Below are positions 140-56,226 of a stretch of DNA of 64,000 nt, piece by piece. Source of the DNA: Deuterostichococcus epilithicus (lineage: Eukaryota > Chlorophyta > Trebouxiophyceae > Prasiolales > Stichococcaceae). The number at the start of each line of letters is the position of its first letter. Position 1 is the first letter of the stretch. The notes beneath the pieces are model-generated. The model saw nothing but the letters and a program-made list of their open reading frames with translations, was not told where the DNA came from and searched no databases. Location of the stretch: assembly GCA_033439295.1 (NCBI GenBank), contig JAVTLE010000023.1, forward strand, positions 620,001-684,000, in the 5' to 3' direction. Position numbers and translations under genes: made by a program.

Positions 140-3100
140 GCGAACAAAGGCGACAGGCAATGTGCGAAGGACCGCTTTGCGCGGCCTTCGCTCGGCAAGT
201 CGCGGTTTGCACCGCCGGAGGCAGCACAGCCACAGGATGCCGGGGCGGCAAGCCAGGCACCTCAGCAGCAGCAAGCAAATGCTGAACCGCAGCAGCAGCA
301 GCGGCAGCATTCAGCCGCTGCGAACCGGCAGGTGCGCTTCATTGCGCCGCCAAGCAAGCTGCCGTCGCCGCCGGCGCCACAGGCCGCCGCAGCGGCGACA
401 GAAGCCGTCACGCCCATGTTCGGCGGCTTTCGGAGTCGCCTGCCGCGGCCCAGCAGGGCCACACCGGCGGCAGAAAAGGTCGCCGACAGTGGCAGCGCGG
501 CTCCGGCAGCACCACAACTTGCCGCGGCCACCCCGGAGACGCCTGCCGTCCTGCTGTGGCGGTCCTGCGGCGCCGCGGGCATGGTAACGCCGGGGCTGCA
601 ACAGCCGGCTACGGGCGAGCAAAGTTTCATGCTGTCGGCAGAGGCGCCCTCGTCGGCCGACAGCTCACTGGCCACAGGTGCATTTGTGGCTGTTCCGTTT
701 ATTTATATTTGAGAGAAATTGGGACGTGGGGTCAGATGTGCAGGATTGGCAACATGGAGCTCATGGTTTAGTTCGGCACTGCCAACTTGCTCACATTTTG
801 ATGTCTTCGACTGCAGTTGCATTCGGCGCATGCAAATGGCACTCAGTTCCTCCCTTTCCCTTCTTGAGGGAACAATCATTTCCTGCCGTCTCCCGTGCAG
901 GTGGCTGGTCCACTGAGGAGACGCCGCCGTTCGTGGGGCAGCTGCCGAGCCGCATCCCGCGCCTGGGGCCTGGCTACGTCCACGCCTCCGCGACCCAGCC
1001 GCGCATGTGGTTTGAGGTACAAAACCTGTGGCAACCATTGCAGCCACTTTGACTCAGTGGCTACTCCTCGCTGCAGCGTGCCTCAATGCAAGACAAAGCG
1101 GCAGGCTGCGGCTAGAGCTGGGGCTGCCATTGAGAGCGCAGGGCGCGCGGCTGCCTGCGCACAGCATGATTGCCCCAGTGCCGGAGACACACAGGGCAGC
1201 CGTCTGCATCCACCAGGCAGCTCTCTGAGCGTCAAAAGAGCTGCCCACGTAGCTGGGTTACAGCCGCACGGTGCTGCCAGGCTCACACACGGCTGGGAAA
1301 TTGGTCGGGTGATGCATGATCGCCTCGTTACTGCCCCAACCCTGAATGTAAAGTCCCTCCCGCAGGAAACACCGGAGGCCCCGCCGCCGCCGGATGCGCC
1401 ACTCGATGCCGCTGATGCCAATGCCGCGGCCGGTGAGCCCATCCACGACCCGCAGTCCCCGGGCGGCTCCTTCGCCTTTTCTTTTCGCGCCGACGGCGGC
1501 AACGCTGCCGGTGGTGCCAGCATCGGCCCACCGCTGAGCCGGCAGCAGCCGCCGCCCGCCCCCGAGATGACGTCTGCGCAGCTGGAGGCATGGCGGGAAG
1601 CCGACCGATACCTCGTTGACAACCCCCTGGCCGAGCGCGGCACGCCGCTCCCTGGTGCGGTTTTCAGAGTGACTGCCCAATCTGCAAGTCCCTGGACCGA
1701 TGTGAACCTTCAGCACCTGGAGATGGCACCTTGGCCGTCGTGCGCCTGGTGTGTTGCATGTGTGTGTGTGTGTGTGTGCGGACTCGGATGTACCAGAGCA
1801 CGTGTTGCCTGCACGGAATCCTGCAGTCCCTTTGATGGGTTTTCAAGCATTGTTGTCTGGATTCCGCATGCCGCGACACGCACGGTGCAGTGCCGTCACG
1901 CTCCAGTCGCGCTCCTCCGCAGGCGCAAACGGCGCCACGGCGGCAGTGCCCGCCCTCGGCGAGTGGTCGCCGTGCGACGACGCGGCGCTGCGGGCGGCGT
2001 CGGCAGCCGTTGGCGCTGAGCCGGCGACCCCCGCTCTGCTGGCACCCAGCTGCGGCGCTCACAGTGCAGAGGTGCGGCATCAGCTCTTAAGACCGCCAAA
2101 ATTTTAAGGGCTGCTCTTCCCAGCCTCCTGTCTCACTACAGCCTCACGATCGCCACAACACAGCTGTCGAACGATGGCCATGTGCAAACCTCGTGCAGGC
2201 GCAGCCTTGGAGGCTCTCCTCGTGTTTGGTGCATCTAGTGTCAATGCTCACCAGCCTGTTGTCGAATTATTAAACAAGCAATATGGATTCCTGCTGAACT
2301 GCAGCGCTCGGCGACGGCGCTGGGGCTGTTCAACCTGGAGGACTTCTCTTTTGGTGCGGCGCCGCCCAGCTTCAATGACTCCACCCCCGGCCTCATCCTG
2401 GACCGCTCTGCCGGGTCGCCGACCGTGCTGCGCGATGTCGAGGTGCACGCCCGGCACATCTTCTGCCCCCAACTTCGTGCAGCTCAGCCGTGCAGTGTGT
2501 TGCAGTGCACTGCTTTCGAGATTTGAGGCGTTTGCATCTCAGCACCCAGCGGCACCCTCAGTGCGCCACTCCACCAGAATGTTGTGAAGGCTGGAAGCGC
2601 AGGTGCTGCCACCGTCTGGGCATCCAACGCCTTCGGCAGGGCAGTGTCCACGACACTCGATTCGACCGCTGCAACCCATTCGCAGAATCTCGAACCACAA
2701 TGCCTCTTGGCCGCTCGTGTGGATTGCGCATGTCATTCACAGCGGCTGCTCGCCGCTCTTCCACAGGCGTGGTTTGCAATGGGCGCGTCGCCTTGCACGT
2801 CCACAGCACGCTTCCCGCGGCGCCCCGGGTCGCCGCCGCCGCGCCTGCGGCTGAGCCCCACCACCCCCCGGTTCCTGCCCAGCGCCGGCCTGCTGGCCAC
2901 TGGTGCGCAGCACCTCGAATCCGACCCTCTCAATGAATGTCTCCTTGCTTGCTCGAGGTGCTCCATGCTGTCTGGCTGTTTCTAGTCTTCCTGCCCACCA
3001 TCGGCCTGCTGGCTACCTGCGCGCTGCAGTCTGCGTCAGTAAGCCCATTGTGCTGCTGGCAGCTCTTGACAGATGCTTAGACCCACAGTCTTAAAGATCA

Positions 3101-6100
3101 GGGGCATCCCTCCCGGCTGGCAGGGGCACGCCTACATGATCTCCCTTGGGAGCCATCTTTCATTCACTTCTACTCCCGCAGACGAGTTCGACCCACAATG
3201 GTCGGCTGGCAGCGGCGCGCCTACCGTCATATCGCTGGGCTCCCCCGCGACGGAATCGGTGCACAGCTGTGGCAGCGGCGGCCGCCGCTTTGGCACGCCG
3301 CCCGGCTTCGTGCTGCCAACGCTCAAGGTGCTGATTCCTGCTTCTGCTGGTTTCTCGCTCCAGCAGAGGACACGGGATTCAACACATCAGAGTGCTGCTG
3401 GGTTACGTGGTCGATAGTGCAGGCTTGTGCGTGCCTGCTGCGTGCTGCTGCTACATAATGCCAGCTGCAGTGCCCAACTATACAATCCTCTGAGTACGAC
3501 ATGCTCATGCCTGTTCTTCTGTAACTGCAGCTGGCATGGGCCTGCTTACTGCACTGTGCAAGGGCCACGTGTATCACAGCAGCACGCAGCAATACGGGCA
3601 CAGCGAAATCGCTGGTGCTGTTCTGACTACTTTTTACTGTTTTTATTTTGCAAAAGGAGCTGACAGGCGCGGGGTCCGACTCGCTGCTGACGGCGGCCTC
3701 TGGCTGCTCGGCGGCGCGCGGGCTGCCGGCCAGCGCCTGCGGCGCACGCACCGGCGGTGGCGGTCACAGCCGCAGCGCGAGCGCCGGCACGGCAACGGTG
3801 CGCCTGACACCGCCGGTGTCGGCGGGGCAGCAGGAAGCAGATCCACTCTGCGCGTCGCCAGACTCCGACCAGGTGGGAAACAAAAAGGGTTAGAGCCCCG
3901 CTCCCACCTCTCCCTCAACTGTTTTTGACTGCCTCGCGGGCCATAGCGCTTCGGCCGCCTTCCTCAGTCCCCTGTGCCGCTTCACCCATCCGGAGGCCGC
4001 TGCAACCCATCGCTCCAGGTGCCGGCCTGGGCGCCAAAGCCTACAGGAACCCCGTCGGAAACTTGTGTTGCAGTGCATCTCTGAGTCTGTGCTTCCTCGG
4101 CCTGCAGGCGTGCAGCCCAGAGTCGGCAAGCGGTGAGCCGCAGGCGCCCCCGCCGCCGGCGGGCAGCGCCGCTAAACCCTACCTGTCCATGCTGCGCCAC
4201 CTGCGAGGCGACTTGTACGACTCTCCAAACACGGGGGCAGCTGCAGCCGCGCCCGACGCCGCCGCCGATAGCCCCGTCACGCCCAAGGCAACTGGTGGTG
4301 GCAGCGCAAGCAGCGGCGGCGGCATGCAGCAGCCGGCCTTCGTCGATAGCCCCACGGACGGCAGCCCGGGAGACAGCGCGGGCAGCCGCAGCGGCAGCTC
4401 CCAAGCCCACAGCCCTGACGGCTCGCCGGCAGCGGCCAGCAGCGCCTCCCCGTCAGGCAGCATCCCCGAGACCGTCCTCGCCTCCGCCGCAACCGGCAGC
4501 CCGGCCGCAGGGGCCGCGTGCAGCCCCGAGGCGACTGATGGCCAGGCCCCCGCTGCGACCGCCCCGCCTGGCGGCTGTGACCAGGCGGACAGGGGCGCTC
4601 CTGCGGAAACGCAAGCCGCCAATGGGGAGCCTGCTGACGGGGAAATGGCGGGCACAGGCGCGGGGAGCACTGACGCGGCGCCGGATGCCGCCGGGTCGCC
4701 ACCCAGGATGAAGACACAGCAAGTCGCTGGCCTGGGAGGTGCGACGCATGGCCGATCCCGAAAACCAAGCCTGAGCAGACCCGTCTTTGGGTGTTGCCCA
4801 CCTGCATGCTGCATCGCAACTTTCCGGTGTGCGCTGCTCGCTGCTGACGGCACTGCACATCGCCTGGCAAGTGGCCCTGTCAAAGCGTCGCATGGCATGA
4901 GGGGCAGCGGCCCCAGGGCATGCGCAGCAGCCCAGCCTTGGACATTGTGAAACGCTCCTAACACCTGCCGCAAGCCTGACCAGTAACCAACCCTTAAAGG
5001 GTTGTCAGATGAACAACCTGGATCACGCCGGGGTCTTTGTGATGTGCAGCAGCGGACGCGACGCCAGGTCGCGGCAGCCTGCAGTCGTGGATGGCGGCCA
5101 CAGGTCTCACGGACATCACCACGCCTGCGCAACGCGGGCTGCAGGTGAAGCTCCTTAAGGTCACAGTGCAGGTTGGTTATAGTGTTCCAGTCGTCCGGCT
5201 CACTGCTGCACTCGTGACTCCGCAGGCTGCCCGAGGGGCTGGCCGAAGTTGCGGAGAGCAGCTGACCCTTTTTGCATTCGGCTGTGAGGTCCCGTCATGT
5301 GGTCGGCCAGTGTGTACGGGCAGTCTTGATGACCTGACAGCCGACCAGAAGCCGCCATGCTGGCGGCAGAGCACACCTGTTCAAATCGCAGCATGGTTTG
5401 CCTGTGAACATGCACATGATATGTAATTTCCATTTAATACTCGAACCCGTATCTTATTAGCAGACGCACAGACGTAGATAGATGGACATGAAAACGTGCT
5501 GTGTACCCTGATCCAGGCGATGTGGGGCGCGGCCGGGGAGGTGCGTGCGCTGCGCTCTCTGGTCAAGCGCGTCGCGGCGTCGGAGCTGGAAATAGCAGCA
5601 GCAGAGGCAGACGAGGCCGCCGCGCACTGGGCAGCCATGGTGGGTGTTTAATGTGTGTGTAATTATCATTCATCGTGACAACATCCTGCATTCCCACACC
5701 TCAGGTGACTGGTCGCGCAGTGGGTCGCCACGGCGCGGCGTGCGGTGCACCGCAGGTTTCGACTGTGTCGTCCAGCGGTCTGGACTGTCATGGCTTGCGT
5801 TCGCCAGAGGGAGACTCGTAGCGCACGTGCTTCTTGCTTTTGCAGGTCGGAAGGGTGCGTCGTTCAGCAAATTGTTCCTTAAGGGGGTTGCAGTCGGCAA
5901 GGGGGTTGCAGTCGGCGTTCCCTGATGTGGGCGAACTGAAGCAGGCAGCTGTACTCTAAACCCTAAGATCCAAGTCCGAGTGTGTGTCCTCTCTCCTGTA
6001 GGTGGAGCACTTCGTGTCCCACGACAACGAGGGCTTGCTATCAGATGTGCGTGGGCCGCAGACACACAATGAGATATCTTCTCCCCCTCTCTTCAGCTAG

Positions 6101-9100
6101 AGCGGAGTGGAGCTTGGTGCTGGACGATGAGGGCTGGTCGTCGGTGTGCGATCACCTCAGGCAACTGAAAGCTTGGCATCGAATGAGGGCATGCCAGAGT
6201 CAAGGGGAACTTGGTTGTCTTGCACGCAGGTGGAGCAGAGCGAGGCAGTTGCGCATGACAACGAGGGGCTGCGCGCTGAGCTGGGCCGTGTGCGGGGCGA
6301 GCTTGCGGCACTCGCGCGGCAGCAGCAAGCGGAGGCGGCGGCGCGGGAGGCGGCGGCGGCCGCCGCCGCCGCGGAGCTGGCGTCCCTGCAGCGGCGCTCC
6401 GCCGAACTCGCCGCCGAGCACGAGGTGCGGTTGTGGTAAAACTTACTTTGGAGAAAAATAGTTCTAGTGTTGCATCAAAAATCACAGTTTAAAAATTGCA
6501 TCATAGAACATGGATGATGCATCGATTCACCAGGCTGCACAGAGAAGTTGCAAGCCTGGTTGAGGCAGCTCGAACGTCTCACGTGTGTCAGCGCATGGCC
6601 TCCGATGGGTTCCGGACAGGCACGGCAACTGCAGGAGCAGACGCGTCGGTCCTTCCCAGCCACATGCATGCCCCGAAAGGTGCATTGAATCGCATGTGTG
6701 CCTTCCGCTCGCAGGCGGAGACACAGGCGCTGTGCCGCGAGCTGGCGGCTGCCCGCCAGCGGCTGGCGGAGGCGGCCGCGGCGCATGACGCTGCCGGTGC
6801 AGCTTCGGGCGCGCAAGCAGGCGCGGACGCTGCCAGTTCGGCGCGTGCGGACGCCGCCTCTTGTGCCCGCGCCGCCGAGGTCAAGGCGGAGCTTCAGCGT
6901 GCCAAGTGAGTCCCCCTGCCGCGTTCCGTGCCCAGCTCCGCTGGCAAGACCTGACACCGTCGAGCTCGCGCGGCCAGTGTGTCATCCAGACGGGCTGAAC
7001 GTGCTGCCGGTAGCGCTTTGCTGCAAATGCATAGGCCCCAAGTGGAAGTGCCGCTGCAAGTGACAAGCGCAAATGCATTCGCTGCAAGTGGCCAGCCTGA
7101 ACGTGCAGCTGAGCACTTGACACAACCAGCTTGCGCGCCACCACCAGCCGCCACAGCCACCGCATCCAGAAGCTCGCTCTCAGAAGGCTGTCTACCCAGC
7201 TCGGCTCTGCCCATGATCCGGCGTCGACAGAGTGTAATGTAAGTTTTTCCTGCAGGGTGGACGTGGAGGCTCTGCGCGCAGCTGCGGAAGCGGCAGCGGC
7301 GGACGCATCCCGCCGCACCTCGCACATGGCCGCGCAGCTGGCGGCGGCGCGAGCGGCGGCAGCCAGGGCCGAAGAGGCCGCCGCCCGGGCGGTGGCGCGT
7401 CGCCAGGTGCAGCAGCTGCGGGAGTGGTTCTGTGGCAAGACCCGGCTGCATGGGCTGCAGGCAGGGGCGCCCGCCCGTGAGGGTCAGGGTTCAGGGCTGC
7501 ATCACCACTGCATGCCACTGCCAAGATATAGGCGCTCTGTGCAAGGCGTGCTTCAGCAACTGGTGTGGTGCACATGTTCATGCACCCAGGTGGTTTCTTT
7601 CGGAAATTAAGCTTTCCATCTGGCTGGCAGAGCAGCGTGCACCTTCAATTTCGACAGCTTCTGTTGCGTCTTGCACCAGGCCCAGCAGGAGCAGGCGACA
7701 GAGGCCCTGGCACTGGTGGCAGACAGCACGGCCACTGGGCAGAACGCTCCGGAGGCCAGCAGCCCTGGCGGGGAGGCCGACATGGTTGCCATCGAGGGAG
7801 ACGAGAACGCGTTGCTGCGGGCGCAGCTCGCAGCGGCGCTGCTGCAGCTGGCGGCGGCGACGCCAACCCGCGATTTGTCAGCGGATTCGATGTCCCTTGC
7901 CGCCACCAACTCCGCCGTGACGGCCGCCAACTCGTCGGCGACAGGGGCCCCGTCATCAGCCGCCGCCACGTGCGGCAGCGTCGACAGCTCAGCCGGCAGC
8001 GGCACTGGCGCCGAGGCGGGCAGCCCACCGCCGTCGGCGCTGCGGCCGTTCAGCCTGCGCCTGGCGTCGCCGCTGGGCGGCTTCTCGCCGCAGCCGGCTG
8101 GCGGGTTCGACTCCGACTGCGAGGTGCGACGTCGCTGCATGGGCTTTGGAAAAGTCAGGCACACAGATGACTTATATCTTTGTATCATACCGGGTTCCTC
8201 GCCTGATCAGGGGTCCTTCCGCTGTGGCCAGGAGCCCGGTGGGGAATCGTTATGGGTGGAAGGGCTGAATCCTTATGGACAGCGCTTTATCCAAGTCTGA
8301 CAGTCTGCCTGCAGCACGGACATTTCAGTCTGCATGTGGGTTCCGTTCAAGACTTGCAATGCGCGAGTGCAAGCGACGGCAAATGCTGCTTTTTCCTGTG
8401 CAGGGGTACTTCACCGCCGGTGAGGCCGACTGGGACGGCTGCAGCAGCGACGGCGAGGCTGCAGCCAGCCCTGGCAAGCTGCCGTTTGCCGGAGCGGGCA
8501 TTGCTGAAGCGCCAACGCCTGTCCCATGGACCTGCGGCAGAGACGCCTCCGACTCTGTGCCGCAGACGCCGCCGCGGTGCAGCGCAGACCACGGCCGCAA
8601 CTCCGACGATGATGCACACGCGGCAGCGGCCGAGGCGGCTGCAGCGGCGAGCCCGCAGCCCGCAGCAGCAGCCACGGCGTTGCCGGGGGCTGCGCCAGCG
8701 GACGAATCGTCCGCTTCCCTGGCCTGTCGCGAGGAGCTCGGCAGCGTTTCGCCGGAGGCTGCAGCAAGGCCCAGCCCCGCGGCCGTGACAGCCGAGAGTG
8801 CGCCTGCCAGCCCCGCTGCCGGACAGGTGGACAGCCCGGACGCTCAGTCAGCGGACAGCCCCGCAGCTGAGGCACCTGTCAGCCCAGCTTCAGGGTCACC
8901 AAGCAGCGTCGTGGCGGCCAGCGTGACAGTGGAGCCACCCACCAGCCCCGCGGCGTGCAGTCTGGCGGACAGCGTTTTTGCAGGCGCCAGCCTTGAGCCC
9001 TTGCCTGTGCTGCCGCCGCCCGCCGGTCTGGCAGCTGCCAAGCCCCTGGCGGCAGGCTCCCCCGGCCTGTGCATCTTGCCCTCGCCAACGCCGGCGGCCG

Positions 9101-12100
9101 GGATGAACGCTGCCGGCTCGTCTGCCGCCGGCGATGCGATGGTCCCGGAGACGCCTCCAGCTGGGCCGCCATCGCCAACGCTGGCCCCGCCGGCGGCCGC
9201 AGCAGCCAAGACGCCAGCCGAGCAGGCAGGGTCATCTGTCCCAGCATCGCCCGACCCGCTGCGGTCCCCAGTGACCATGGACACCTTTGCGCCGCGCGGT
9301 GACAGCCCCAGGACGGCAGGCAGCCCAGCCGACGGCAGCCCGCATGGCAGCTTTGGCTCGCGCCTCGACTTTGGCGCCGTCGCCTCGGATGTCGGCAGCC
9401 CGCTGGCGGCGTCACCGTTCAGCGACGGCGGCCCCAGCTGCAGCAGCCTGGCGAGCCCCAAACTCGTTGCGAACCTTTCCACCACGATACCATGCTCAGA
9501 CGGTGGTGGCAGCGACCTAGCCGCCTGGGGCAGCGCCGGCGCGCCAGGCAGTGACACGCCTGGTGGCTGCAGCGGCTACGCCAGCGGCTCTGCAGCGGGC
9601 AGCCCGGCCTCGCCGCGGCGGCTGGCGCTTGGCGGCGGCAGTCCAGACTCACATGCGGGCAGGATCGTGTCTCACGACCAGGGCGAGCTCGCCAGCATGT
9701 CGGCGTTCTGCATGTTCAGCAGCCCTGACGCCGCTGCGGTGACCAGCGGCGCGGCGGCGCCGCCNGAGCAGTGNAGCGCGGCTGCGCACGATGGCAGACT
9801 GCCAGGACGCGCCGCCGGCGGCCATCGCGCAGGAGCTGGCCACGGCGGCCGAGCCTGCCGCTGCGCCAGGTGATGTGTGTGGCAAGCTGCTCGAGGCCAA
9901 GGCACAGCCCAGCGCCGATGGGCAGCTAGCGGCAGCAGACGCCGGCGGCGGCGTCATGCCGGACGCCGTTGCGCAGCCGGAAGCCGCCGCGCTCGCTGCA
10001 GACGCCCCAGCGCAGCCTGAGCCGGCCTCGCTGGGTGCGGGCTCCCTGGCGCCGACGGCCACCACGCCGTGGGAGCCGCGGCCGGAGCTGGGCAGCGGCA
10101 TCGACTTTGCGGCGGCCGGCGGCACCGGCGGCGACTCTGTGAATTACGGTTTTAGCGTGGAGCCCAATGCCGGCGGCCCGCTGGCGACACCCGGCATCCC
10201 GGCGGTCCTGCCTCTGAGCCCAGGCTGCACGCCGGCCGGGCTCTTCGGCAGCCTCGCCTCTGCAACCGACTTGCCGCCGCCGGCTGCGAGCTCCCCGCAG
10301 GCCGAGGCCGCAGCGGCAGATGCCTCCGCGGCGCTGCAGGACGGCAGCCCTGCGCAGCTGCACCTGCTGCCGCCAGCGGAGGCCGGCGACTGCGGCGCCG
10401 GCGAGGTGTGTATGAGCTTGCGGACGCCAGAATGCCATGTGCTCAACCCCCCCTCACCCGCCACCAGCCGCGGCGGCCGCCGCGCTGCAGCAGATGCGCA
10501 GGACGCCGCAGAGCGCTGCTTGGACTGCGGCAGCCCAAGCGGCAGCCCTGCCACCGTATTCCCCGCCCCGGCGCCCGACTCCGGCCTGCCAGCGTCTCCG
10601 GCTCCCGGCGCGGCGCCTGCATCCCCCGCATCCAGCGCCGCTGCATTCCCTGGTTCCAACGCGCCAGTCACGCCGGAGGCGTCTTCGCCCGCCCGCCGGG
10701 AGCGCGGCGCGAGCGCAAGCCCCGGCGAAATCATCCGCAGGGTGTGCTTTTGTTGGCAGTTTGCTCCAGCTGGCTGCCTTTCCTGCAGTCGGCAGCCGGC
10801 TGCGTTTCCCGCCGTCGTGCGAGATGCTGAGCACACTGCACAAGACCTTGCAGCTAACTTGTGATGCTGCACCGGAAGATAGGCTGCAAATCTCACTGGG
10901 AGCTTTTGAGCCGCCAGCCTAAAGGTCGTGCTTGTCAGAACATGCCGCAGCAAGGTCGTGAATGATTTGGTTTGGATGAGCTCTGAGCAATTGCGCACGG
11001 TTACACACGTCCCACGCGCGGGTCTGACACCACTGTGTTGCATGCAACTGCGCAGCCGTTGGCATCGTGCTGGGATCGAGCAACACTCATGGGCATTTGT
11101 CGGTTTGCGCTGCAGGGTGGCGTGCTGGGCGCCATCAGGCATTTTGACCAGCAGGGCTTTGGCGCTGCGCCGCCGCCGCCGCCTCACCTGGCGCGACCCT
11201 TTTTCCCGCAGCCCGCCTTCCACGCTGCGCAGCAGCTGCCCGTGGAACTGGCGGCGACGCCCGCTCCTGGCAGGTGTGCATGTTCCTCTGGTCTTTGTGT
11301 CAAGCTTGCATGCTGCCTGGCTCTGAGCTTTTCCACGCTCAACGTGCACTGTCATGCTGCCTCTCTATGATCCAAGAGTTCAAGGTGCCGAACTGTGCAT
11401 TCTGTACTAAGACAGCTTTCCAAAAGCGCCCCCCGCGCAGGCAGCAGCGACCGCATGACATGCACCCGACAGGGCGACAGCTGTTGGTCTATGCACTGCA
11501 CCCTCAACCCCATCACTGCCTGTTACCACCAGAGCTTGCAACATCATAACGATCAAAATATCCTCGACATGGTGTCCTGTGCACGCAGGGGAGGCGGCGA
11601 GCGGCGCGGGGCGCTGACGCCGGTCTCGGCGCTGGCGGCCATCCTTCCCGGCGGCGCAGCTGGCGGCGACGGTGTCGCCCTGTTGGCCTCGCCGTCAGCG
11701 GGACCGCCCGCCGGCGACGCGCCGCGCACCGCGGGCGGCTGGGGCGGCATCACCGCGCGGCTGCAGAAGCTGCGAGCCGACCTCCAGGAGACGCAGGCTC
11801 GGCTGCACACCGCTGAGCAGGTCCGAGGCATCTCTGCTGCCTTCGATTGCAGTCGTCCAGGGTATGTTTGGCATCAGGTAGCAGCAAGTGTCATTCCCAC
11901 TGCTTCATGTCCCTCCAGGCCACTGAAATGCAAGGAAATTTGCAGGAAGCAACTGCACGGTGGGAGGTCTGCAAGTCCAAAGTGATGCCCGGGCCTGCTT
12001 GCAGATGAACTTTGGCGGCACGCCCAGCCCGCTGTCGACAGACTACACGACTGCCGAAGCGCTCACCCCCGACGGCGGCAGCCCCGAGCACAGCGCTGGC

Positions 12101-44422: not shown

Positions 44423-45125
44423 GCATGTCGACCAGTGTATGGGGAGCGAGTGCTCGTGCTTGCATGTTCAGCCAGCAGCAGGAGTGTGCGTCGTGGTTCA
44501 GCACTCTGGAAGCAGTACGGCTGTGGGATCCAGCAGGGTCAGGCAGGCGGAGAGTGTTGCTCTATGAGCCAGACCTGACTGGACCTCCCGGCGCAGCTTC
44601 GAGTTGCACGTATGGTTTCAATTGGTTCCAAGAATCTGTCAGACTGCGACTATCCCTGGAGTACCAACTATGTCCTGAATACCCCAGGTCAACGCTTGAG
44701 ATGAGTTTGCACACACCATCACGCCGCAAGTTGCTCTGCCGCTATTGATCAGGCCCGGTGCCCATCTGCCCTCGCGACCACGTTGCTTCGATCGCCGACC
44801 TGCAACAATCGCTGCCATAGTGCTGCCCGGTGGCAGCACATACAAACAGCGCCACTGCCGCCGTCTTGTGTAAGTCCGCACTCGGCGTGCCAGTGCAGGC
44901 TGGCCCTGTGCTGCCGCTGCACCGCGCTCCCCTGTGCAGCCAGCGGCTGCTCGGCTGCAGCGCCCAGTTGCAGCCTTGATCGCAGCCCCAGCCTCAGCTG
45001 CGTGCCACGACGAGAGCTGCTGCAGCATGACTGCATGCACCCGATGACAGACAGCCGCCTTAGGCACGGCAAGCTGCGTAGGGGGGAGAGCCGCAGTCCA
45101 ATTGGACTTGGTGACTTCCAGACCC
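44423..45125. other. Spacer between convergent DJ-1 and NDC1 genes
   Basis: About 0.7 kb carrying both 3' flanks. The stretch from 44880 to 45120 is GC-rich but has no frame consistent with a conserved protein. Confidence 0.5.
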
Positions 45126-48100
45126 TCAGCTGCGCCAGGAGGAGGGCGGCCGCCCCGACAGCGCCCCCTGCGCCGCCTTTAGGCCATCGCCTGCCAGCTG
45201 CTCCAGCCAGGCGGCGCCCACGCGCAGCCGCTGCTCGCCCGTCGGCTGCCGGTACCAGTAGGCCGCGCGCCGCAGAGCGCCCGCCAGCGGGCCTGCACAC
45301 GGCAGGACAGCTATCGAGGGAAAAAAACCAACAGTAACAAAAGCCTCTTCCTCTTTTCTGATGATCAAACTGGAGAAGGCAGCCACCAGACTGGACCTTG
45401 ACTCAGGTCACAGCACGGAGCGGCGCCCGCCAGCAGGCTTGCCAGCAGCAGAACATATGAGAGGGATCGGATGAGCATGCCGCGCGCCGCAGGGGGAATG
45501 CCAGGGGGCCGGAGCGCTGCAGGACAGGCAAGGGGTTCACAGCTGGTCAGGGTCTGCAGCAGACCAGGCCGTCTGGCGACGAACACATGGCGAGGACAGG
45601 TTGGAGCAGAGTTGGGTTTCGATCTGCCGACAGCTGGCAGCCGGGCTCGCGTCCACATGTCGCTGTGATGCTCTCGGTCACCTGCTTGTGCTGCCTAAGC
45701 CAGTATGACACCTGTGCGACATGCTGGGGGCTTCATCGGATAACATCGGGGGACTGCCTGGATGAGGGCCGGCAACCAGCAGGGTGTAGGAAGCGTGCGC
45801 ACCATCGAGCGTGATGCGGCGGCTGTCGTCCGAGGCGTCGACCTTCACGCCCGCGGCGCTGGCGAGGCTGCCGAGCAGCCCACCTTGCAGCACGCCGGCC
45901 AGTGGTGGCGGCAGCGGCAGTGGCAGCGTGACTGCGCCGTTGATGGCACCCAGCGACATCATGTCACCAAGGTGCTGGTACCTGCACAGGCGACCAAGAT
46001 CTTCGTGGCTCTCTTTTCGAAAACCACAACTTGACTCGAGGCATCGCATCGCCAAACGGAAGACGGCGGAGAGCAGGAATCTAAACCCTGAATCAAGGTC
46101 CACGGCGCCCAGCAGTGGCATGACACGAGTGGATGCCTCGAAGGGGCGGGCACTGAACGAACGGAAAGGCCTGCATCCGGCAAATTCTGCTGCTGCTAGT
46201 GTCGCTGCTCAGCAAGCGACTGCGTAGATACCTGGAGAGAGACCCTGAGGCGCAAATGTGATGTCCAATTCTGCTCGGACGCACGAGTCTCACCGGAATG
46301 GCAGCAGCGGGCGGCCGTTGATGGCGGCCCAGAGGTTCCATGCCACGTAGTCCGCCTGCTGGAATGCCACCTGCATTGCGGAAAACGTGAATTTGGGGTT
46401 CGAACTGTGGTAGAGACGAACCATGGATGAACCTGTTGTGCACCAGGACTAAAAGCAACGTGAAGGAGGCTGCAGTAGTGCTCGCTCTCAGACACTGCGA
46501 CGCCCGGCAAGCATGCTGGAGCCGGTCTTGCTGGAACATGCAGCAGGCTGGGCCGCCCTCCCATCCGAGCCGCCGATCCATGCTCAGTCGGGCAACTTTT
46601 GAGCAGCTGCGCCTGCGCAACAGCTTCGGGTGGGAGACCTCGGCCTGCCAGCTGGCCATAACTTCAAGGCGTCTCAAGTGCTGGCCATGGCAATTGAGCC
46701 CCCAAATTCACCCGACACAACTTCACCTGACAGAAGCTTCAAACCCTAAACCCCGACACACCTGCGCGGTGGCGGGCAGCGCGTCGGACGGCGGCACGTC
46801 GACGCCCGACACATCTCCCAGCGCAAAGACGCGGGAATGCGACACAACCCGCAGCGTGGCGTCCGTCTCCGTGGCACCCTGCACATCGCCATGACACCGC
46901 GAGCTCGAGAGCAGCTGCGATTTTTTGGCCCAGAAAAGCCGCAAATAATGATGACGTCTTGTGCCCGGCTGCCCGTTTAGCTTGGTGACACTCTGGTGAC
47001 ACTTGGTGACACTAGGTACAGGATGTTTTCAATCCATCCATGACTGCAGCATGTGTGCGGGCTGGGAGAGGTTCCATAAGCGGAGCAGACGTCGTCGAGT
47101 GACCACACCTTGCTGTTGAGTGGGAATGGCATCGACAGCCGCCCGCCCTTTTTCGCTGCATCATGACCATCGCTGCCCTTTGAGGAAGGCTGCGAGCCCG
47201 CAGTCCACAACACCAGGTCCGCTTGCAGCAGCTGCGCAGGACAACAAATTAGTATGCCAGCCGCCACCACACAACAGATAAAACCGAACATCCCGCTTCC
47301 TCACACAATAGTCCATCACCATGCTGTTGGAAGACCGCGCTAGCTCATCGTGGCAGGCGCGCATGCCGCCGAGTGCGCTGGTGGCCTCTTTGGCTGTGCA
47401 GATGCAGCGTCGTGGGCACGTGCGATGCGAGCCTTCGAAGGCAAACATAAGGAGGCAGAGGAAGGAATGCAGAGGAATAAATCACGACCACACCTGTTGC
47501 GAGCCGTCCTGCATCTTGAGGTAGACCATGCGTGGCGCGGTGTCCGGGACTCCCTCTTGCGGCTCGCCTCCCACCCGCTTAATGGCCGACACCTGACGGC
47601 ATCACATCAAACAGTGTGATCACGCCTTTGTGTCCCAGCCAGTCTAAAGACCCTCTGGACGAGAGGAGCAAGCCACCAAGGCGCTGGTGCCTCGCTGTTG
47701 TGCTGAGACTGGGGAGAATCTCGGCCCGGTTTTCAGTGTCGGTAGCAAGGGTGAGCAACAGAAATGCAGCAGGGGAGCGGCTTCAGGTGGAGGCCCTGAC
47801 TACTTGATGTTGGTTATCTTGACGTGTTGAGCATATTGTATACTGCAACCAGCAGTCAACTTGAGCTACCGCTACCGTGACGGTGAAGAGACCACTCACC
47901 ATGCCGTTGGTGACAACCGTGACGCCCTTGCCGCTGAGAACCGAGCGTGCTGCCGCACGCTGCCCCGGCGGGCTAGCCTCGAGAATGTCTGGGCCCCCCG
48001 CCACCAGCTTCACACGGCCACGCCCTGCCACAGTAGAGGTTGCACGCTGAAGGCGCGAATGGTTGTGCGGCTTGAGTGACGACGACCAGCCGACTGATGA

Positions 48101-50900
48101 TTACCCAAAATGGTCCTGCAGGAGCCACAGGAAGCCACCACGGCACAGATCGGCTAGGAAGGACCGGTACCTGCCAGCATCTCGGCGGCAACGCTGGCCA
48201 GCTCGATGCCGGCATAGCCGCCGCCCACGACCACGACCTCCGGTGAGCTGCCCGGTTGGCTCTGCAGCTCTGTCAGGCGCTGCTTCGCCTGCACACAACG
48301 AAATCATCTCGAAAATCATTACGAGAAGTAAATGATTGTTATAGCAACAGGACCCCGGACCTTTACTTTACTGTGAGATGCAGGAGCAGAATGCCTGCAT
48401 GGAAGTGCCGCACAGTCTTGAGCAGGAGCAACCTAGCACAGCGTCAAAGGTACACAGGCCCTGCAGAGGCCCCGCCCAGTCCAGCCCAGGCAGACGCTGT
48501 CCGGCATCACCATCGGCTACATGATCCACACCCTCGCAGCGTCAACAGTCGTGCAGGATTGGACTGCCGCAGCTGCGGCAACCCAAGCTTGACGTCCCAG
48601 CACTCAGTGACCGCCAAAATTGCCAATGAACGACGCTGGCTACATTTCCCACACCCCGACGGCATCGTTGTGGGTGCAGCAGTGGACTGCCAAAAAAAGA
48701 GAGAAAAATAACCCCAAGCTCCGTACCCACATCCGCTGCCTGTCTACACTACCAGCTCTGAGGGTTGGTCCCCAGGCTGACGGCGTGGGTGCTGAGTGCA
48801 GCCACCAGCTGCTTGAAGTGTCAGCAACCTCGACCAACAATTCTTGGCTACTGACGGCGCTGGCGTCATGTTGCTCACCCTGACGGCGTCGTCACAGGTG
48901 CAGGAGGGGAGCCAAGGCTGCAGAATCAACGTCCGGTGTAGCCACAAACAGCGTTGCCTGCCTGTTGACAGCATGACCGCTTGCCTTGACGGCGTCTTCG
49001 TAGGTGCAGAAGGGGACCGCCAGTTGCCGGGCGCCCGGGATGCCGAAGGTGCTGGTCTCAGCGCCCAGCGCCAGCACCAGCCAGTCGTACTCCACGTGCT
49101 GCCCGTTTGCCAGCGTGACCCGGCCGCCTGCGTGCAACAAGGGCAACTGTTCATAGTTTCCCATGCTAGTCACATGTGTCGAAACAGCTGGCAGCACTTG
49201 CCAGGCACACTTCACGAGCTGCCCGTTTGCCAGCGTCACTCGTTTGCTAGCATCACTCCTTTGCCAGCGTCAACCAGCGACCTACACATGGTGGCACAGC
49301 GCATTTCAACGGCCGGTTGCCTCGAAACACAGCCAGCTGCATGCTGTTGCACACGCACGCCGTTGCCTACTCGTCACCAGCATTGCCTCGTCACATGCCA
49401 AGGTGAGGATGCAAGGGGAGGATGCAGTTGTGCAAGCATTAAACTCTGCTGCGCTCCTCCAGCACTGTTGTGCTGCTGTCCAGCGGCACGCCGCACCTGT
49501 GGCGCTGCCGCCGTCGCTCAGCGGCTGGTCTGGCTCCACTGCATTCACGCTGCCCTGCACGGACAACAGGCCATCCAGAACATTCAGGGTCCAAGCCAAA
49601 GCCATTCAGCCGAATGCTGGTCCCTGGACCAATGCAAAGGCTTCTGGAGACACGCATGGCCGCAACGCACAGCTGGGTTTAGGGTTTAGGATGGCCCAGA
49701 CGCCACCTGGATGATCTTGCCGCACCACATCAGGGCCGTCGTGGGCACCTGGAGGAAGTTGATGTTGTAGGGTGCGAGCAGCTGCTGGAAGTAGGGCGCC
49801 ACCTCCCACGCCTGGGCAGTGCCCGCCACGAAGTCGTACAGCAACGGCTTGAACACAAACCTCTCGCTCTGGTCGATCAGCGTGACCTGCAGGCACCGCG
49901 GGAAGTGTGAGGCGGATGTAACAGGATGTACTGCCCTGATGCCTTCGAACTTCGTCTCGTCTGAAAACGAGGCAGGGTCGCTGTGACAAAGCAGCACGAC
50001 CTGCATGCGCAGTCATGAATTCGTGCGACATGAGAAGAGCAACTACAGCTCGTATTGCCGATTGGAGTCGAGGCCGGCAGCCAGCGGCGGTGCCCATGCC
50101 CATACTCCTTGCGGTCGACTTGTGACAGGTGTGCGGTGCATCGCAACGCAAGCACGAGGCCCAGCCCCCAGACAACCAATCACGAAAATCGAGGAGGTGG
50201 TGCTTGGACAGCACACTGGAGTTGGCAAACTGCTGCCCATGTTGGGACTGTGGGTGCGCGGGAGGCCCGCGGCGCCTCCCATGTGAGGAGTGTGCTCACC
50301 TGCGGCTTCGTGTTGTGCGGCCACAGCAGCTGGTCCAGTCGCACCGCGGTGTACAGTCCGCCAAAGCCGCCGCCTAGGATGCACACCCGCGGGCCGGGCC
50401 GTGGTGCGCTGCCTGCGCCGCCGCACAAGCTGCTTCCATCAGAGAAGGGCGCGAGCAATGATGCTTCAGGCACGGGGCAGAATCCACTGCGTTCTGGGTT
50501 CATTGCGAGACAGCTTTCGGTGTACCAATGCCGGCAGCCGCTGAGCCAGTGTTTGTGGCGTACGCAGCGGCGGCAGCGCCGCCAACGCCAGCGGCGCCAA
50601 TGCCGCCGCGCCCCTGTCGCCCTGTATGAGGTACCGAGCACACCTCGCGGCGTGTTGTCGAATGTCCAATCTAGCCGGTTGCAAGGCAGCTAGACTGCAG
50701 GCGCACAGCCATGCAACCAGCAGAGGACTGGCATACTGCCTGACCTGCCGCTCGGCTAAGCCAGTGCCCGCGCCTCGACTGCTGCCAGCTGGACGCCGGC
50801 GAGTTGTGCCGCGGGTCAGCTGGAATACTGCTGCTGTCGCACGACGCCTGGCAGCGGCACGCTGCAGCGCTGGCCGACGCCGGCGTGCGGCTTGCAGCAT
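45126..50900 (-). CDS. NDC1: Type II NAD(P)H dehydrogenase, NDC1 class
   Basis: FAD enzyme moving electrons from NAD(P)H to quinones such as plastoquinone and demethylphylloquinone. Exons: 50412-50300, 49886-about 49701, 49127-48985, 48288-48171, 48024-47900, 47592-47494, 47231-47109, 46878-46762, 46370-46294, 45981-about 45788 and 45292-45126 (TGA). Motifs: VCILGGGFGGLYTA for FAD, IEYDW-type VEYDWLVLALGAET, VVVVGGGYAGIELA for the nicotinamide cofactor, VFALGDVSG, PATAQVAFQQADY, INGRPLLPFR, YQHLGDMMSLG and AYWYRQPTGEQRLRVG at the end, in the family's order. An Arg/Ala-rich N-terminus starting at ATG 50900 (LQAARRRRPALQRAAARRR) looks like an organelle-targeting peptide, but its splicing to 50412 is unresolved, as is a small gap after exon 49886. 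The intron after 48985 uses a GCAAGC donor. Confidence 0.9.
48645..48925 (-). repeat. Three downstream echoes of NDC1 exon 49127-48985
   Basis: On the plus strand the exon end reads TTGACGGCGTCTTCGTAGGTGCAGAAGGGG from 48983. Related text occurs near 48882 (CTGACGGCGTCGTCACAGGTGCAGGAGGGG), 48778 (CTGACGGCGTGGGTGC) and 48655 (CCGACGGCATCGTTGTGGGTGCAG). Spacings are about 101, 104 and 123 bp, so one intron contains a graded series from well kept to faint. Confidence 0.8.
49208..49275 (-). repeat. Upstream echo of NDC1 exon 49127-48985
   Basis: The exon begins VTLANGQHVEYDWLVL; 118 bp upstream the same frame reads VTLANGQLVKCAWQVL. Plus-strand GAGCTGCCCGTTTGCCAGCG matches GTGCTGCCCGTTTGCCAGCG. 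A fainter third copy follows at about 49250-49275. Confidence 0.85.
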
Positions 50901-51664: not shown

Positions 51665-54600
51665 ATGACACAGGACGGCGGCGAACCGCCGCCGCCGAAA
51701 GCCGGCGGCCTCAGCTTCGGCGCCTTCAAAGGCCGTGCCAAGCCCAAGCTGGCGGTGTCGGAGGCGGAGCAGGCGCAGCGGCGGGAAGCAATAACCGGCA
51801 TCGGCGCTGCGGGCGTGATCTCTGCTGACGGCGCGCCGGCAGCGACCGGGCCGCGGGTCATCCCCAAGCAGGCGGACAGCTTCGTGGTGGGCGTAGGCCG
51901 GACGCAGCAGCAGCAGCAGCCGGATGGCCGCGGTACTGGCAAGCCGCGTTTCATACCCGAGCACGATGACGGCACCGTAGGCACTGTTGACGAGAAATTC
52001 GAGGTGCAGTTTTTGGGATCTGAATTGCACAAAGCTGTGCTTGTGAGATACGGCTAGACCGTGCTGCTGCGCCAGCTTCTTGTGAAGGCAACATGTCTGA
52101 ATTGTACTCTGGATGCCATTGCTTTCTGGTCTCCTTTTCTGCTGTTCCCAGTGTCAGAGTGAACCATCTGTTTGTGCTTCACAGGTGGCAGCGGAAGCGG
52201 CAGTCGACACCTCGATAGTGTACGGCCTCAACCTGCAGCCGCGGAGGGACCGCAGCGGCGAACCCATGTCGGAGTCTGCCGCCGCGCGCGCCGCGGAGGA
52301 TGGCCCTGGCGAGGCGGCGCAGCAGAATGGGAACGGGAACGGGGCCGGCGAGCTCTCGGTCACCAGCCGCGACTGGGAAACCAGAGCCTTCAAGGTGCGG
52401 CTGCAGCTCGTTGGCAGGCTCGAACGCAACTTCAACTGCGGTCCGCTGCCTGTTGGGGTGGACTCTGGGCATGTCTGGCTGCACGTGCGCAGACGGTTGG
52501 AAGGGTTTCGATGCATCTGCAGCGGGTTGACGAGGCCGATTGAATTTGGATGGCAATTCCGAGTCGCCAGACTTGCTGCCTCGCAGGAGGACGTGGCCAG
52601 GCTGCCTGACGAGGCGGACGCTGCCGCATATGAAGCGATGCCGATAGAGGAGTTTGGAGCCGCAATGCTGCGAGGCATGGGCTGGACGGAGGGGCAGGGC
52701 GTGGGGCGCCGCAAGAGCGGCCCCGCCAAGCCCTTCCAGTACGTGCAGCGCCCGCACCGGCTGGGCCTGGGCGCCGAGCCTGCCAAGCCCGAGGTGGGGG
52801 CCGGAAAGTAGGGTTTGGGTGCCCGTGCTCGCTGCTGAGCAATGGCGGCGCTCAAGCGAGATGAAGGCGTCGCTCTGGCCATTGTCGCCGGCACAATCAT
52901 GGGTAACCGACTTCGAGCCTGCGTGCAGAACAAATGGACGTGCCTGTAAAGCTGGCCCCGAGCATCAGACGCCTGCCGTTACGGCATGGCATGTGCCACC
53001 ACATTCAGGAGCAGCCGGCGACCAGGAAGCCGTTGAGGGACACCGCTGGATTTCTCGTGTCTGCCACTGAAACTTTGCTGCGAATGCATAAATGGCTCAA
53101 TCTCCAGGAGAGCAACCGACAGCACATCAAGCCGTGAGAGGTACTGCAGCAGTTCACAATGCTGGTTATGCAGCTGTAAGTGTTTCAACCCGCAGGAGAG
53201 CAGCCGGCGACACATCAAGCCGGGGGAGTCGCGGGAAGCGAGACAGGACAAGGTGTACATTGATGCGGAGGGGCGGCAGCGCCACGTCATGACTCTGGAC
53301 GACAAGCTGGTGGGAGAACGGTTTCTGTTGCAATGGTGATTCTGATGAATTCAAGCTTGAAGTAAGCAGGACAGGGCGCGGCGCCACACCCTTCATTACC
53401 CTGGTTGAGGTTCGGGCTGGTGGGTTTCGGGATTGACGATGGGTTCTGCATTGTTTTGGGTCACTAGGTGAACACAAGTCGAAATTTCAAAGGCAACATC
53501 AGCTGAAGATCGAACCTGTCGAAGGCTGCCGGTCTGCTGTTGGACTACGCCAGACATTTGCGTCTGTATACGGACATATGCCTAGCGGTCGTGGTGCATG
53601 ACAGATCCGGTATCTGGATCAGGAAACCTTGAAAGTGGGCCGCTGAGCTTGCATGGCGGGTATGTGGCCGAACCTGCCGCTATAATTGCGGTGCGGCAAC
53701 CTTCGCCACAGTCAGAAGCTCGATACCTCACACGAAAAACAAGGCATCTCGTGCTCTGACAGCCTGGCGCTTTGCTGCACGCAGGTGCCTTCGCCAGCTG
53801 CTGGTTTCTGCAAATACTGAACGGCAATTGTTTTTAAATAAAATTAAGTCCTGGCCCTCCTGCCCCCAGGTGGATCGACAGCTGCTGGGCGTGCACCCAG
53901 GCAAAACGATGCACCTGCTGTCCGGCCGCCATGAGGGCCTCACCTGCGAGGTGCGCTCCCATTCCGGCGTGTGACTGCCTGCGCATTGTCGTCCAGCTGG
54001 TGTAAGGGCGGCCATTGAGCAGGCTGGGTTTGACTTCGAGCAGCTGGCTGGCTTTGGCCGCAAGCCGTGGGCGACTCCTGCGTGTTTTCATGCCAAGCTG
54101 CAGGCGAACCCTGCAGTTGGTTGCGACGTCATGCTTCGAGAGGGCGGCAGCCTGCTCCCCACCTGCCAGCAACATCTCAGCCAGATGTGTGCAGCAATAT
54201 GCGCCGGCCGCCCCCTGCCCTGCTGTCAGCCCAATGATGCCCAAAACAAGTAATTCTGCTGTTCGAATCTCTGCTGTTCACGGCCTGCTATGATGCCTCT
54301 CCCAGGTGCTGGCGCTGGAGCCGAAAGTGGCGGGGCGCTCCGACAAGGCCACGGTGCGGCTGCATCCCTCTGGCCAGGCGGTCAGCGTGCGCTGCGCTGA
54401 GCTGGGCGAGAAGCATGAGGCGGACGCTGCAAAGCGGGACAGGGCGGCGGCAGCGGAGGAGAAGCGGCAGCGGAGGAAGGAGAAACGCAATGGTGGCGGC
54501 GACGGCGGCGGACGCGACGGCTCCGGCTGGGATGGCTCCGGCCGGGACGGTTCCGGGCGGGACTCTGGCGCCGACACCGCGAAGCGGCGACGGCAGGACG

Positions 54601-56226
54601 GCGGCGGCGCGGCGGAGCGGGATTCGGGTCCACAGGTGCCTGCCGCAGTGTCAGCTTGCAGTCGGTGCTTCGTACTGTACAAAGCTTGGCGGGCCACCAA
54701 CACACTAAGAGGACGCTCCTGTGGCCAGTACCGCCCTGCAGTGCCAGAGACCTGTTGCAATGACGCAACAGGCCAGCTTGCCCTTGCTTCTGACGAATGC
54801 ACCCAACAGCACAGACGGCATCCGGCCGTCCGACTTGTTCCCGTGTTGCCGCACCGCCTGAGACGCTCGCCCGCTCATCCTTCGCAAGGCATTCGCTGCA
54901 GGAGAGGCGGCAGGCAAACGGCGCGGCGGCCGCGGCGCGGGACACTGATGCCGCAGCGCCAGCCGCAGGCGGCGAGCGCGGCTGGCTGCTGCCACACATT
55001 CGTGTGCGCATCATCGACAAGACCCTGGCCCAGGTTCGCCATCCGGCCTGTCATCCCCTGCGCATGGCGGCTGCGCATGCGTCCGCGCGCAGACGATGGT
55101 GCTCGTGCTGCGCTGCCGCCCCAGCGCATGGGGATGTTGCCATGTGTTGCAGATCCCTGTGCGCTGGCGTGTGGAGCTGGAGGGCTGAGGAAGCATCTGC
55201 ATGCGCATGTGCTTCTTCCTGCGCCATGTGCCCTGTGCACACCTCGTGCCGAACTGAAGCTGCAAAGTCGGTAGGGCCAGGCTGGGCTAGCATGCCCGAA
55301 TTTGGCGCCTCTCGCCTGTTGCACATCTGTCAGCTGTCTCGGCATTCAACAGCTCACCCTGGACTTATCAAGTTCAAGCTTGATCACCCAGTCCGTGTGC
55401 CGCTGCAGGGCCGCCTGTACCTGGAGGAGGCCGCAATCCCGCATCCCACAGTCCACTCAATGATACGAACATTGTATGTGACCCAACAGGAGGGTCGTTG
55501 CGCTGCCGCAGGGCCGCCTGTATCTGAAGAAGGCGACCATCGTGGACGTGGCGCAGCCCACGGTGTGCGATGTAGTTGTTGATGACCCCCGGCAGCGCGT
55601 CAACGGCGTGGCGCAGCGGCAGCTCGAGTCCATCGTGCCAAAGGCCAATGGCGCCAGGGTGAGACTTTGAGAGCCCCGCAACGAGGCAAGTGAACGGCAG
55701 GTGTGGGAGAGCTTCCGAGGCTGCTTGCGGCGGCGTTGTGCCAGGCGCCCTCGAAGCGGCCTTGAAGGCTCAGTGTGCGGGAGTACTAGAGCCTCCCCGC
55801 GTGAGCGGCAACATGCACCATGAGCATTATGTTGGGCGAAGATCACACATTCCGGCAGAAGCATTGAGCACACCAGCTCGGGTGCAGGATTGGAATCGGA
55901 CTCACTCATCAGATACCATGACGGCTGACCTCATCTACTGCGACCCTCAGGATGGCAGGGGGATCGTCACTTGGCAGAGCTTGGCTCAGGATGTTGCATC
56001 GGTTTGCAACGCGTGTGAGGATAGCAGACAGCAGCTTTACTGTGATCACTGTTGCCTGCAGGTGATTTTCCTGGCAGGGCAGCACCGGGGGCAGCGCGCC
56101 AAGCTGCTGCACCGCAATGTCAAGGCCAGCGCGGCAGCAGTCCAGCTGTTGGCTGACTACGAGGTCGTCAAGGTTGCCTTTGACGACATTGCAGAATATG
56201 TAGGAGATGCGCACGAGGAGGAATAG
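51665..56226 (+). CDS. MOS2: MOS2/GPKOW-type G-patch and KOW RNA-binding protein, complete
   Basis: Nuclear spliceosome-associated protein (plant MOS2, human GPKOW). Nine exons, every intron phase 0: 51665-52003, 52185-52394, 52587-52793, 53196-53309, 53870-53950, 54306-54635, 54902-55033, 55512-55658 and 56062-56226 (TAG); 574 residues. The N-terminus GGLSFGAFKGRAKPKL resembles the basic family start. The G-patch lies in exon 3 (IEEFGAAMLRGMGWTEGQGV, then FQYVQRPHRLGLGAEP), and the first KOW in exon 5 (KTMHLLSGRHEGLTCE). A charged RS/RD-like linker in exon 6 (KRQRRKEKR, GRDGSGRDGSGRD) is followed by WLLPHIRVRIIDK and the second KOW-like unit (VIFLAGQHRGQRAKLLHRN). The 3' half is duplicated at 61866-63500. 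Confidence 0.95.
53008..53140 (+). repeat. Two upstream echoes of MOS2 exon 53196-53309
   Basis: The exon starts CAG then GAGAGCAGCCGGCGACACATC. Copies: 53008 (CAG then GAGCAGCCGGCGACCAGG) and 53108 (CAG then GAGAGCAACCGACAGCACATC), spaced 100 and 88 bp. The nearer copy encodes ESNRQHIKP before a stop. Confidence 0.85.
55411..55470 (+). repeat. Upstream echo of MOS2 exon 55512-55658
   Basis: GCTGCAG then GGCCGCCTGTACCTGGAGGA occurs exactly 101 bp before the functional acceptor (GCCGCAG then GGCCGCCTGTATCTGAAGAA). The copy keeps acceptor and frame for about nine codons (GRLYLEEAAI), then has a deletion. Its variants match the duplicated locus at 62809 better than they match the functional exon. 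Confidence 0.9.

Follow-up and report, generated by a model that had tools for sequence, protein, structure and literature searches.

Degenerate copies of exon edges at a near-constant distance in the introns of a green algal genome segment

This study concerns a single 64-kb window of the genome of the green alga Deuterostichococcus epilithicus (contig JAVTLE010000023.1, positions 620,001 to 684,000, the whole stretch of DNA that was analysed), in which about a fifth of the introns contain degenerate copies, here termed echoes, of the edges of the adjacent exons. The copies are more frequent than chance predicts, lie in direct orientation near 105 bp from their parents and are found in introns that are longer than the others. 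With our confidence evenly divided for and against it, we favour the interpretation that the echoes are what is left of tandem duplications, mostly old, which favoured a unit of about 105 bp and lengthened introns. A preliminary description of this DNA had drawn attention to the copies; its observation is partly confirmed, being real but overstated. The main limits on all of the analyses are the one window, self-made gene models and the one paralog pair available for calibration.

Gains in intron length are mostly ascribed to transposons and small indels. If about a fifth of introns keep the fossils of boundary-spanning duplications of near-constant length, these would constitute a countable and datable source of intron growth, and the preference for one unit length would point to some physical ruler acting during replication or repair. 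Comparing repeats at exon edges with repeats confined to introns provides a test of uniform as opposed to exon-tied duplication. There is also a caution for gene finders in that two echoes were called exons by the gene model used here.

Excess, orientation and spacing of the copies

Exons and introns were delimited with a two-strand, self-trained gene model written in Python, which converged at six gene chains with 103 introns and no internal stops; of two earlier versions that were set aside, the first over-split genes and the second fell short of convergence. Pfam matches were obtained for all seven of the gene-model pieces sent. In the edge test, up to 70 bp of each of 198 exon edges (introns of 60-2500 bp, exons of at least 30 bp) was aligned with the adjacent intron, the controls being 100 dinucleotide shuffles, other introns and reverse-complemented probes. 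At p<=0.0101, 17 of the 198 edges beat the dinucleotide shuffles, 18 beat other introns and 16 beat both, where 2 are expected, and reverse-complemented probes yielded one edge at the same threshold. Dinucleotide-shuffled introns were the yardstick proposed in the preliminary description, and the excess stands when measured against them. The 198 edges include those of two short predicted exons that were later taken for echoes, since the edge test, the lag spectrum and the pair list were all run on the original models.

Direct copies occur at the acceptor side, at the donor side and after stop codons, singly or in series, as had been described. That most introns carry them was too broad a claim: at the threshold used, echo-bearing introns number 18 of the 97 introns under 1 kb, and a more sensitive test limited to lags (distances between parent and copy) of 85-135 bp puts the excess among 168 edges at 10% for p<=0.017 and at 17% for p<=0.2. 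The first estimate of about thirty copies was close. A set of exon-intron alignments (score >=27, lags 60-240), from which a pair was dropped if it lay before position 2000 or if it was not clear that just one of its sides was exonic, retained 27 alignments from 22 edges; 21 of these edges, including two stop-codon edges, have a copy at a lag of 175 bp or less, and one has a copy at lag 189 only.

The lag is nearly constant. Among the 18 edges at p<=0.02 in both the shuffle and the other-intron controls, it falls within 87-132 bp in 13 and within 173-217 bp in 5. A lag spectrum was compiled from ungapped pairs (score >=30, lags 30-600, beyond 13.6 kb, low-complexity pairs dropped), in which one series counts several times. 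It contains 29 strong direct pairs, with 2 at lags below 80, 20 at 80-139, 5 at 140-239 and 2 at 240-600, as against a single inverted pair at equal distances. Within the 80-139 class, 2 pairs lie at 80-99, 14 at 100-119 and 4 at 120-139, in agreement with the common period of about 100 bp proposed at the outset; the excess is not the same at all lags but sharply peaked near 100-119. Exon-intron pairs with a score of at least 27 likewise reach 35.7 per million cells at lags 100-120 (11 pairs), while at lags 240-600 (1 pair) each bin has between 0 and 0.5. Between introns, pairs of that score amount to 4.6 per million at lags 100-120 (3 pairs, at 30131, 30274 and 37589, all in exon-anchored series), and at a score of 22 to 7.6-7.8 per million at lags 100-140 (10 pairs) compared with 1.3-2.8 at 240-600; this second excess probably belongs to the echo-bearing introns.

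The 20 first-order lags, compiled manually without the 173 of locus 43522, range from 87 to 146 bp (median 107, quartiles 103 and 119) and show neither 3-bp nor 10-11-bp (helical) phasing. The two stop-codon edges, at which there is no splicing, have lags of 103 and 104 and so match the splice edges. Two other measures are less sharp. In wide overlapping lag bands, 25 of 168 edges were at p<=0.017 for lags 85-110 (expected 2.9), and each of the remaining bands, between 60-85 and 210-235, held 11 to 20 such edges. This spread is attributable to the probe length and the second copies that the bands share, and the sharpness of the lag therefore rests on the edge test, the lag spectrum and the normalised pair counts. 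A base-by-base autocorrelation of matches, summed over lag bins, gave no exon-intron signal at lags 85-130 and is too diluted to use; between introns it gave a small excess of 0.0025 (standard error 0.0009) at lags 100-115, echo-bearing introns included.

Echo loci, their genes and a paralogous segment

The tracts of similarity comprise 11-73 bp of exon and 0-19 bp of intron. The most upstream echo-bearing intron, on the forward strand, has a donor-side edge at 2872-2902 copied at 2988-3028 (lag 116, 33 of 41 positions identical, edge p 0.01) and an acceptor-side edge at 3203-3224 copied at 3114-3135 (lag 89, 20 of 22 identical, edge p 0.01). The first 13.5 kb, a GC-rich, repetitive, low-complexity gene with many background pairs, holds this one echo-bearing intron. 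It is modelled as a single long gene rich in Ala, Ser, Pro and Gly (1-13548, forward strand; about 2,370 residues in 25 exons), is cut by the start of the window and contains N bases.

On the reverse strand, an acceptor-side edge of an exon of the copper amine oxidase gene is copied at 23724-23767 (locus 23616-23767; lag 108, identity 0.77 over 44 bp). A further acceptor-side edge (locus 24747-24921) is copied at 24879-24921 with lag 132; at 39 of 43 positions identical, it is the best-kept single copy of at least 40 bp and the case first reported as 'nearly identical'. The same model chain as the amine oxidase gene includes a match to the allophanate hydrolase C-terminal domain at about 17531-18327 (reverse strand). 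The aldolase, amine oxidase and allophanate hydrolase parts were modelled as a single chain and are probably separate genes.

The reverse-strand gene at 29353-34676 encodes a fusion of a class II aldolase domain with a haloacid dehalogenase domain (Pfam), and we take it to resemble the plant methionine-salvage dehydratase/enolase-phosphatase fusion. Within these limits, again on the reverse strand, a donor-side edge at 29995-30044 is copied at 29866-29915 (lag 129, identity 0.76 over 50 bp). Next to it, an acceptor-side edge at 30075-30107 is followed by an array of full units of about 113 bp that extends to 30437 (lags 113, 226 and 340), in which Tandem Repeats Finder (TRF) recognizes 2.7 copies of period 113 with 79% matches at 30131-30437. 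Single copies are found at 30816-30846 for an acceptor-side edge (locus 30710-30846; lag 106, 27 of 31 identical), at 31997-32030 for the donor-side edge 32084-32117 (lag 87, identity 0.79 over 34 bp) and at 33716-33744 for the donor-side edge 33819-33847 (lag 103, identity 0.83 over 29 bp). A weak acceptor-side case (locus 33930-34066; lag 119) consists of an 18-bp copy at 34049-34066 with 17 of 18 positions identical.

The forward-strand oxysterol-binding protein (OSBP) gene has two full-unit copies upstream of the acceptor-side edge of the exon that starts at 37800 (locus 37589-37849; lags 101 and 206, 76% over 161 columns, gapped). A donor-side edge of a later exon also has two copies (locus 38726-38991), at lag 114 (0.72 over 58 bp) and lag 184 (0.76 over 49 bp), which resemble each other at 0.82 over 73 bp with a lag of 70, the period that TRF reports. 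The acceptor-side edge 39451-39484 is copied at 39262-39295 (lag 189, 0.76 over 34 bp), and the stop-codon edge of the gene at 40019-40076 in the 3' flank (locus 39916-40076; lag 103, 0.79 over 58 bp). Pattern searches for relatives of the OSBP protein in viral and prokaryote contigs, and of part of the aldolase-domain protein in viral contigs, gave 1, 14 and 1 matches, none of which encodes a relative.

In the DJ-1/PfpI gene, also on the forward strand, a donor-side exon edge is copied at 43193-43267 (locus 43066-43267; lag 127, 0.72 over 75 bp), a whole 65-bp exon with its acceptor at 43695-43767 (locus 43522-43767; lag 173, 0.84 over 73 bp) and the stop-codon edge at 44354-44425 (locus 44250-44425; lag 104, 0.71 over 72 bp). 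Three reverse-strand loci follow: an acceptor-side edge with two copies at 45257-45527 (lags 146 and 217; 0.79 over 33 and 0.76 over 54 bp), a donor-side edge at 48979-49016 copied at 48873-48910 (lag 106, 0.82 over 38 bp, with a weaker member at lag 330), and an acceptor-side edge copied at 49192-49242 (locus 49072-49242; lag 120, 0.82 over 51 bp). In the forward-strand G-patch gene, the acceptor-side edge of the exon that starts at 53196 is copied at 53089-53140 (locus 53089-53228; lag 88, 0.77 over 52 bp), and the acceptor-side edge 55494-55541 is copied at 55391-55438 (lag 103, 0.77 over 48 bp). The Pfam families of the window are completed by a pyridine nucleotide-disulphide oxidoreductase. 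A full-length 5S rRNA match (41534-41652, reverse strand; 80.7 bits) lies between protein genes.

The last of these echoes can be compared with homologous sequence. The 3' part of the G-patch gene, which presumably includes a KOW part, is partially duplicated: the segment 54432-56733 has a second copy about 7.4 kb downstream, at 61869-64000 on the forward strand (BLASTN, 75.6% over 1025 and 73.9% over 1260 columns). This second copy starts inside an exon, is without 11 bp in the last exon and so looks like a pseudogene fragment. Over the alignment of about 2.1 kb, the two segments differ at 14.9% of positions in exons and at 25.1% elsewhere, with 39 gaps, of which the only one longer than 27 bp is of 103 bp and falls at the unit that holds the 55391-55541 echo. 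This coincidence indicates that the echo is one inserted or lost unit, the edge being single-copy in the paralogous segment; the length difference of one unit was seen at one locus, the only one that could be so compared. Counted by eye, 2 of 40 positions separate the exon start of the paralog from the echo, and 6 separate it from the exon start in use; these numbers, too small to decide the matter, would fit a duplication of greater age after which the paralog lost one unit. A stretch of 5.7 kb upstream of the second copy (56173-61871), modelled as one long intron, contains no pairs from the pair list (lags 40-260).

The two short predicted exons mentioned above, 29869-29910 and 55409-55450, are themselves echoes. 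Both were relabelled intronic because the residues they insert resemble those at the edge of the neighbouring exon, as if these had been copied a second time, and, in the case of 55409-55450, because the paralog reads through without it. We assume that the extra residues are foreign to those protein families.

Origin of the copies

In the interpretation that we favour, a tandem duplication of a unit of about 105 bp would by chance span the boundary between intron and exon, or between stop codon and 3' flank. The gene would continue to use the boundary copy that preserves the protein, while the other copy of the exon edge would be left in the intron or flank to decay neutrally. Each event would lengthen the intron by one unit, and further events would produce series of copies. 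Most of the visible events would be old, at about 0.35-0.55 neutral substitutions per site per lineage, a figure from simulations with assumed exon rates, calibrated on the one paralog pair. The process would have been nearly silent since then, with purely intronic duplicates faded and coding edges still showing.

The unit length of about 105 bp is suggested by the constant lag, and the duplication of whole units is shown by the two arrays and the paralog indel. Some introns also contain copies near two or three times the first lag (226 and 340 with 113; 206 with 101; 330 with 106; 189 with 88). Together with the lag peak and the near absence of inverted pairs, these observations support that part of the preliminary description which proposed that tandem duplication recurred and favoured units of about 100 bp. 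Echo-bearing introns are longer, with a median of 472 bp (n=18) compared with 272 bp (n=79; Mann-Whitney 2.5e-6), and the contrast persists in a length-weighted comparison restricted to the 17 echo-bearing introns beyond 13.6 kb (p=0.013).

In their decay the copies closely resemble neutral DNA. They differ from their parents by 15.2, 19.0 and 25.5% at codon positions 1, 2 and 3, as would be seen if a copy were free of constraint and its parent changed for the most part silently. New stops in the copies number 2, with 3.8 expected, and transitions and transversions stand at 151/91 in copies and 241/143 in paralog introns. Repeat-induced mutation has left no sign in these ratios, nor in the GC content, in which copies equal their parents.

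If a contiguous unit of about 105 bp was copied, the part outside the aligned seed must also be a copy, and here a number of results weigh against the favoured interpretation. Whole-unit copying is clear at 30075-30437 and 37589-37849, and there are hints of flank similarity at 43522, 44250 and 55391 (z 2.9, 2.2 and 2.3). Outside the two arrays, intron-side similarity beyond the seed reaches p<=0.1 in a single edge out of 19 (Fisher 0.74); on the exon side, arrays included, similarity beyond the seed is present in 3 of 20 (Fisher 0.18). The flank test is imperfect: 37689, a plain array by BLAST, scored only z 1.5 and 0.1 in two runs. The lost flanks are thus partly a matter of power, and at most of the loci the contiguity of the unit is inferred. 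Several series are not multiples of their first lag (184 with 114, 154 with 120, 217 with 146). The GC content of the copies (0.681) has stayed exon-like (parents 0.679, introns 0.575), and 31% of changed codons are silent, compared with 23% (sd 3) under random change, an excess that we ascribe to silent change in the parent.

Boundary-spanning duplications with neutral decay were simulated with indel sizes and frequencies near those of the paralog pair and assumed exon rates of 0.2-0.5 of neutral. When ages are spread evenly between 0 and 0.55 substitutions per site, flank similarity is lacking in 16% of the simulated events that are detected and in 13 of the 18 observed (P 1.7e-7), and 40% of the detected simulated events have seeds over 80 bp, compared with none observed (P 1e-4). 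Constant-rate duplication with neutral decay is thus rejected in simulation. Against it stand also the echo-free introns, in which intron-intron repeats at lags 85-135 show no excess (121 probes; power not simulated), and the fact that no pair of at least 40 bp exceeds 91% identity at lags 40-260 in the window. In echo-bearing introns, intron-intron repeats at these lags (74 probes) show an excess of 6 to 29%, depending on the cut-off.

Restricting the ages improves the fit. For seed length, P is 0.5 at ages 0.35-0.45 and 0.72 at 0.40-0.55; for lost flanks, the values are 0.044 and 0.079. A well-kept seed together with a lost flank remains jointly unlikely (P 0.008, ages 0.35-0.45), and the exonic reach is at most 73 bp at all 22 edges, whereas 13-28% of those simulated extend above 75. 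At ages 0.32 and 0.40, 5% or less of intron-only duplicates are detected in simulation, as against 29 and 9% of edge duplicates. Being nearly invisible at ages of 0.32 or more, intron-only duplicates would be missing after an old wave of duplication, which explains their absence as a steady process does not. The preliminary proposal of a uniform process, visible at exon edges only through coding constraint, accordingly fails at a constant rate; it remains tenable with duplications that are mostly old (about 0.35-0.55) and a process that has almost ceased since then. An old and now quiet wave fits the data marginally.

The lost flanks lend some weight to a somewhat unlikely alternative, in which only the exon edge (about 11-73 bp of exon and up to 19 bp of splice signal) is placed about 105 bp away with unrelated filler in between, for example through repair templated from the exon or a transcript. 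Most loci do lose similarity either at the edge or no more than 19 bp from it, the seeds are too well kept for flanks so thoroughly lost, and the lack of excess intron-intron repeats in echo-free introns points the same way. The lag, however, is more constant than the length of the tract, which a contiguous unit explains and copy plus filler does not, and full-unit arrays are plain to see at two loci. Splice sites are not needed, since stop-codon edges show the same behaviour, and inverted copies, which templated repair might also give, are almost lacking. We consider it unlikely that a past or present mutational mechanism in this lineage is dedicated to exon edges and sets each copy at a fixed spacing of about 105 bp, with the intron gaining a unit at every event; if true, edge-specific copying would mean intron growth driven from exon boundaries with a molecular ruler.

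Patchiness of identity along the unit could also arise if the tandem duplications were very old and gene conversion from the exon had renewed the exon-edge patch, the remainder of the unit being left to decay. At 24747, the 43-bp patch is 91% identical and its flanks, by eye, about 55-60%. Gene-conversion tracts may be this short in a green alga, a point on which our literature search found nothing. This account is improbable, as the loci bear no direct sign of conversion and the intron parts, which should have been refreshed too, are seen mainly in arrays.

That the echoes are functional, as alternative exons or splicing decoys kept by selection, is very doubtful. Two of them are open, have splice sites and were called exons by the gene model, patches outlast their flanks and silent changes are somewhat over-represented; but the codon-position differences (15, 19 and 26%) are those expected of a free copy of a constrained parent, stops occur near expectation, the lags have no 3-bp phase and the paralog manages without one echo. 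Chance similarity, low complexity or an assembly artefact can hardly be credited: background pairs abound in the first 13.5 kb, but the lag peak and the contrast between direct and inverted pairs persist when the first 13.6 kb and low-complexity pairs are left out, and copies that differ by 10-30% are presumably not a duplicated assembly stretch.

Comparison with known systems

Vaughn and Bennetzen 2014 and Schiml 2016 reportedly describe short tandem duplications left by repair where nicks or breaks are staggered, and these resemble the echoes in being direct tandem units of tens to hundreds of base pairs. We know of no preferred unit of about 105 bp, or restriction to exon edges, among duplications of that origin. 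The literature searched, with partial coverage, yielded no description of the fixed unit, the frequency and the exon-edge pattern.

A report on a potato RdRp gene describes a tandem duplication across the 3' part of an intron and the start of an exon, with reuse of the parental splice signals (PMC4974935); a figure legend of the report also mentions an 83-bp tandem duplication inside the first intron (PMC4974935). The likeness lies in the boundary-spanning tandem duplication. In potato, one event created a new intron, whereas the window would record many events, at a near-constant lag, that lengthened existing introns.

A review lists tandem genomic duplication as one route to intron gain, and one that has in vivo support (PMC3443670). 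Akin to the echoes, duplication of an AGGT-bearing unit leaves exonic sequence inside an intron. In the model as given there, splicing removes what lies between the original AGGT and its duplicate, and the new intron is as long as the unit (PMC3443670), while lags of about 105 bp in the window occur in introns of 212-702 bp. Intron gain of the AGGT type does not describe these loci, since the echo-bearing introns are 1.6 to 6.6 times as long as their shortest lag. Introners share with the echoes the gain of sequence in eukaryotic introns and are dispersed copies (PMC9860276); the self-search within the window found local pairs and one segmental duplication, with no dispersed family and no similar copies scattered among unrelated introns, and introners were set aside. 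The type of event, a single boundary-spanning duplication, is known. What differs here is the number of events, the near-constant lag and introns that have become longer rather than new.

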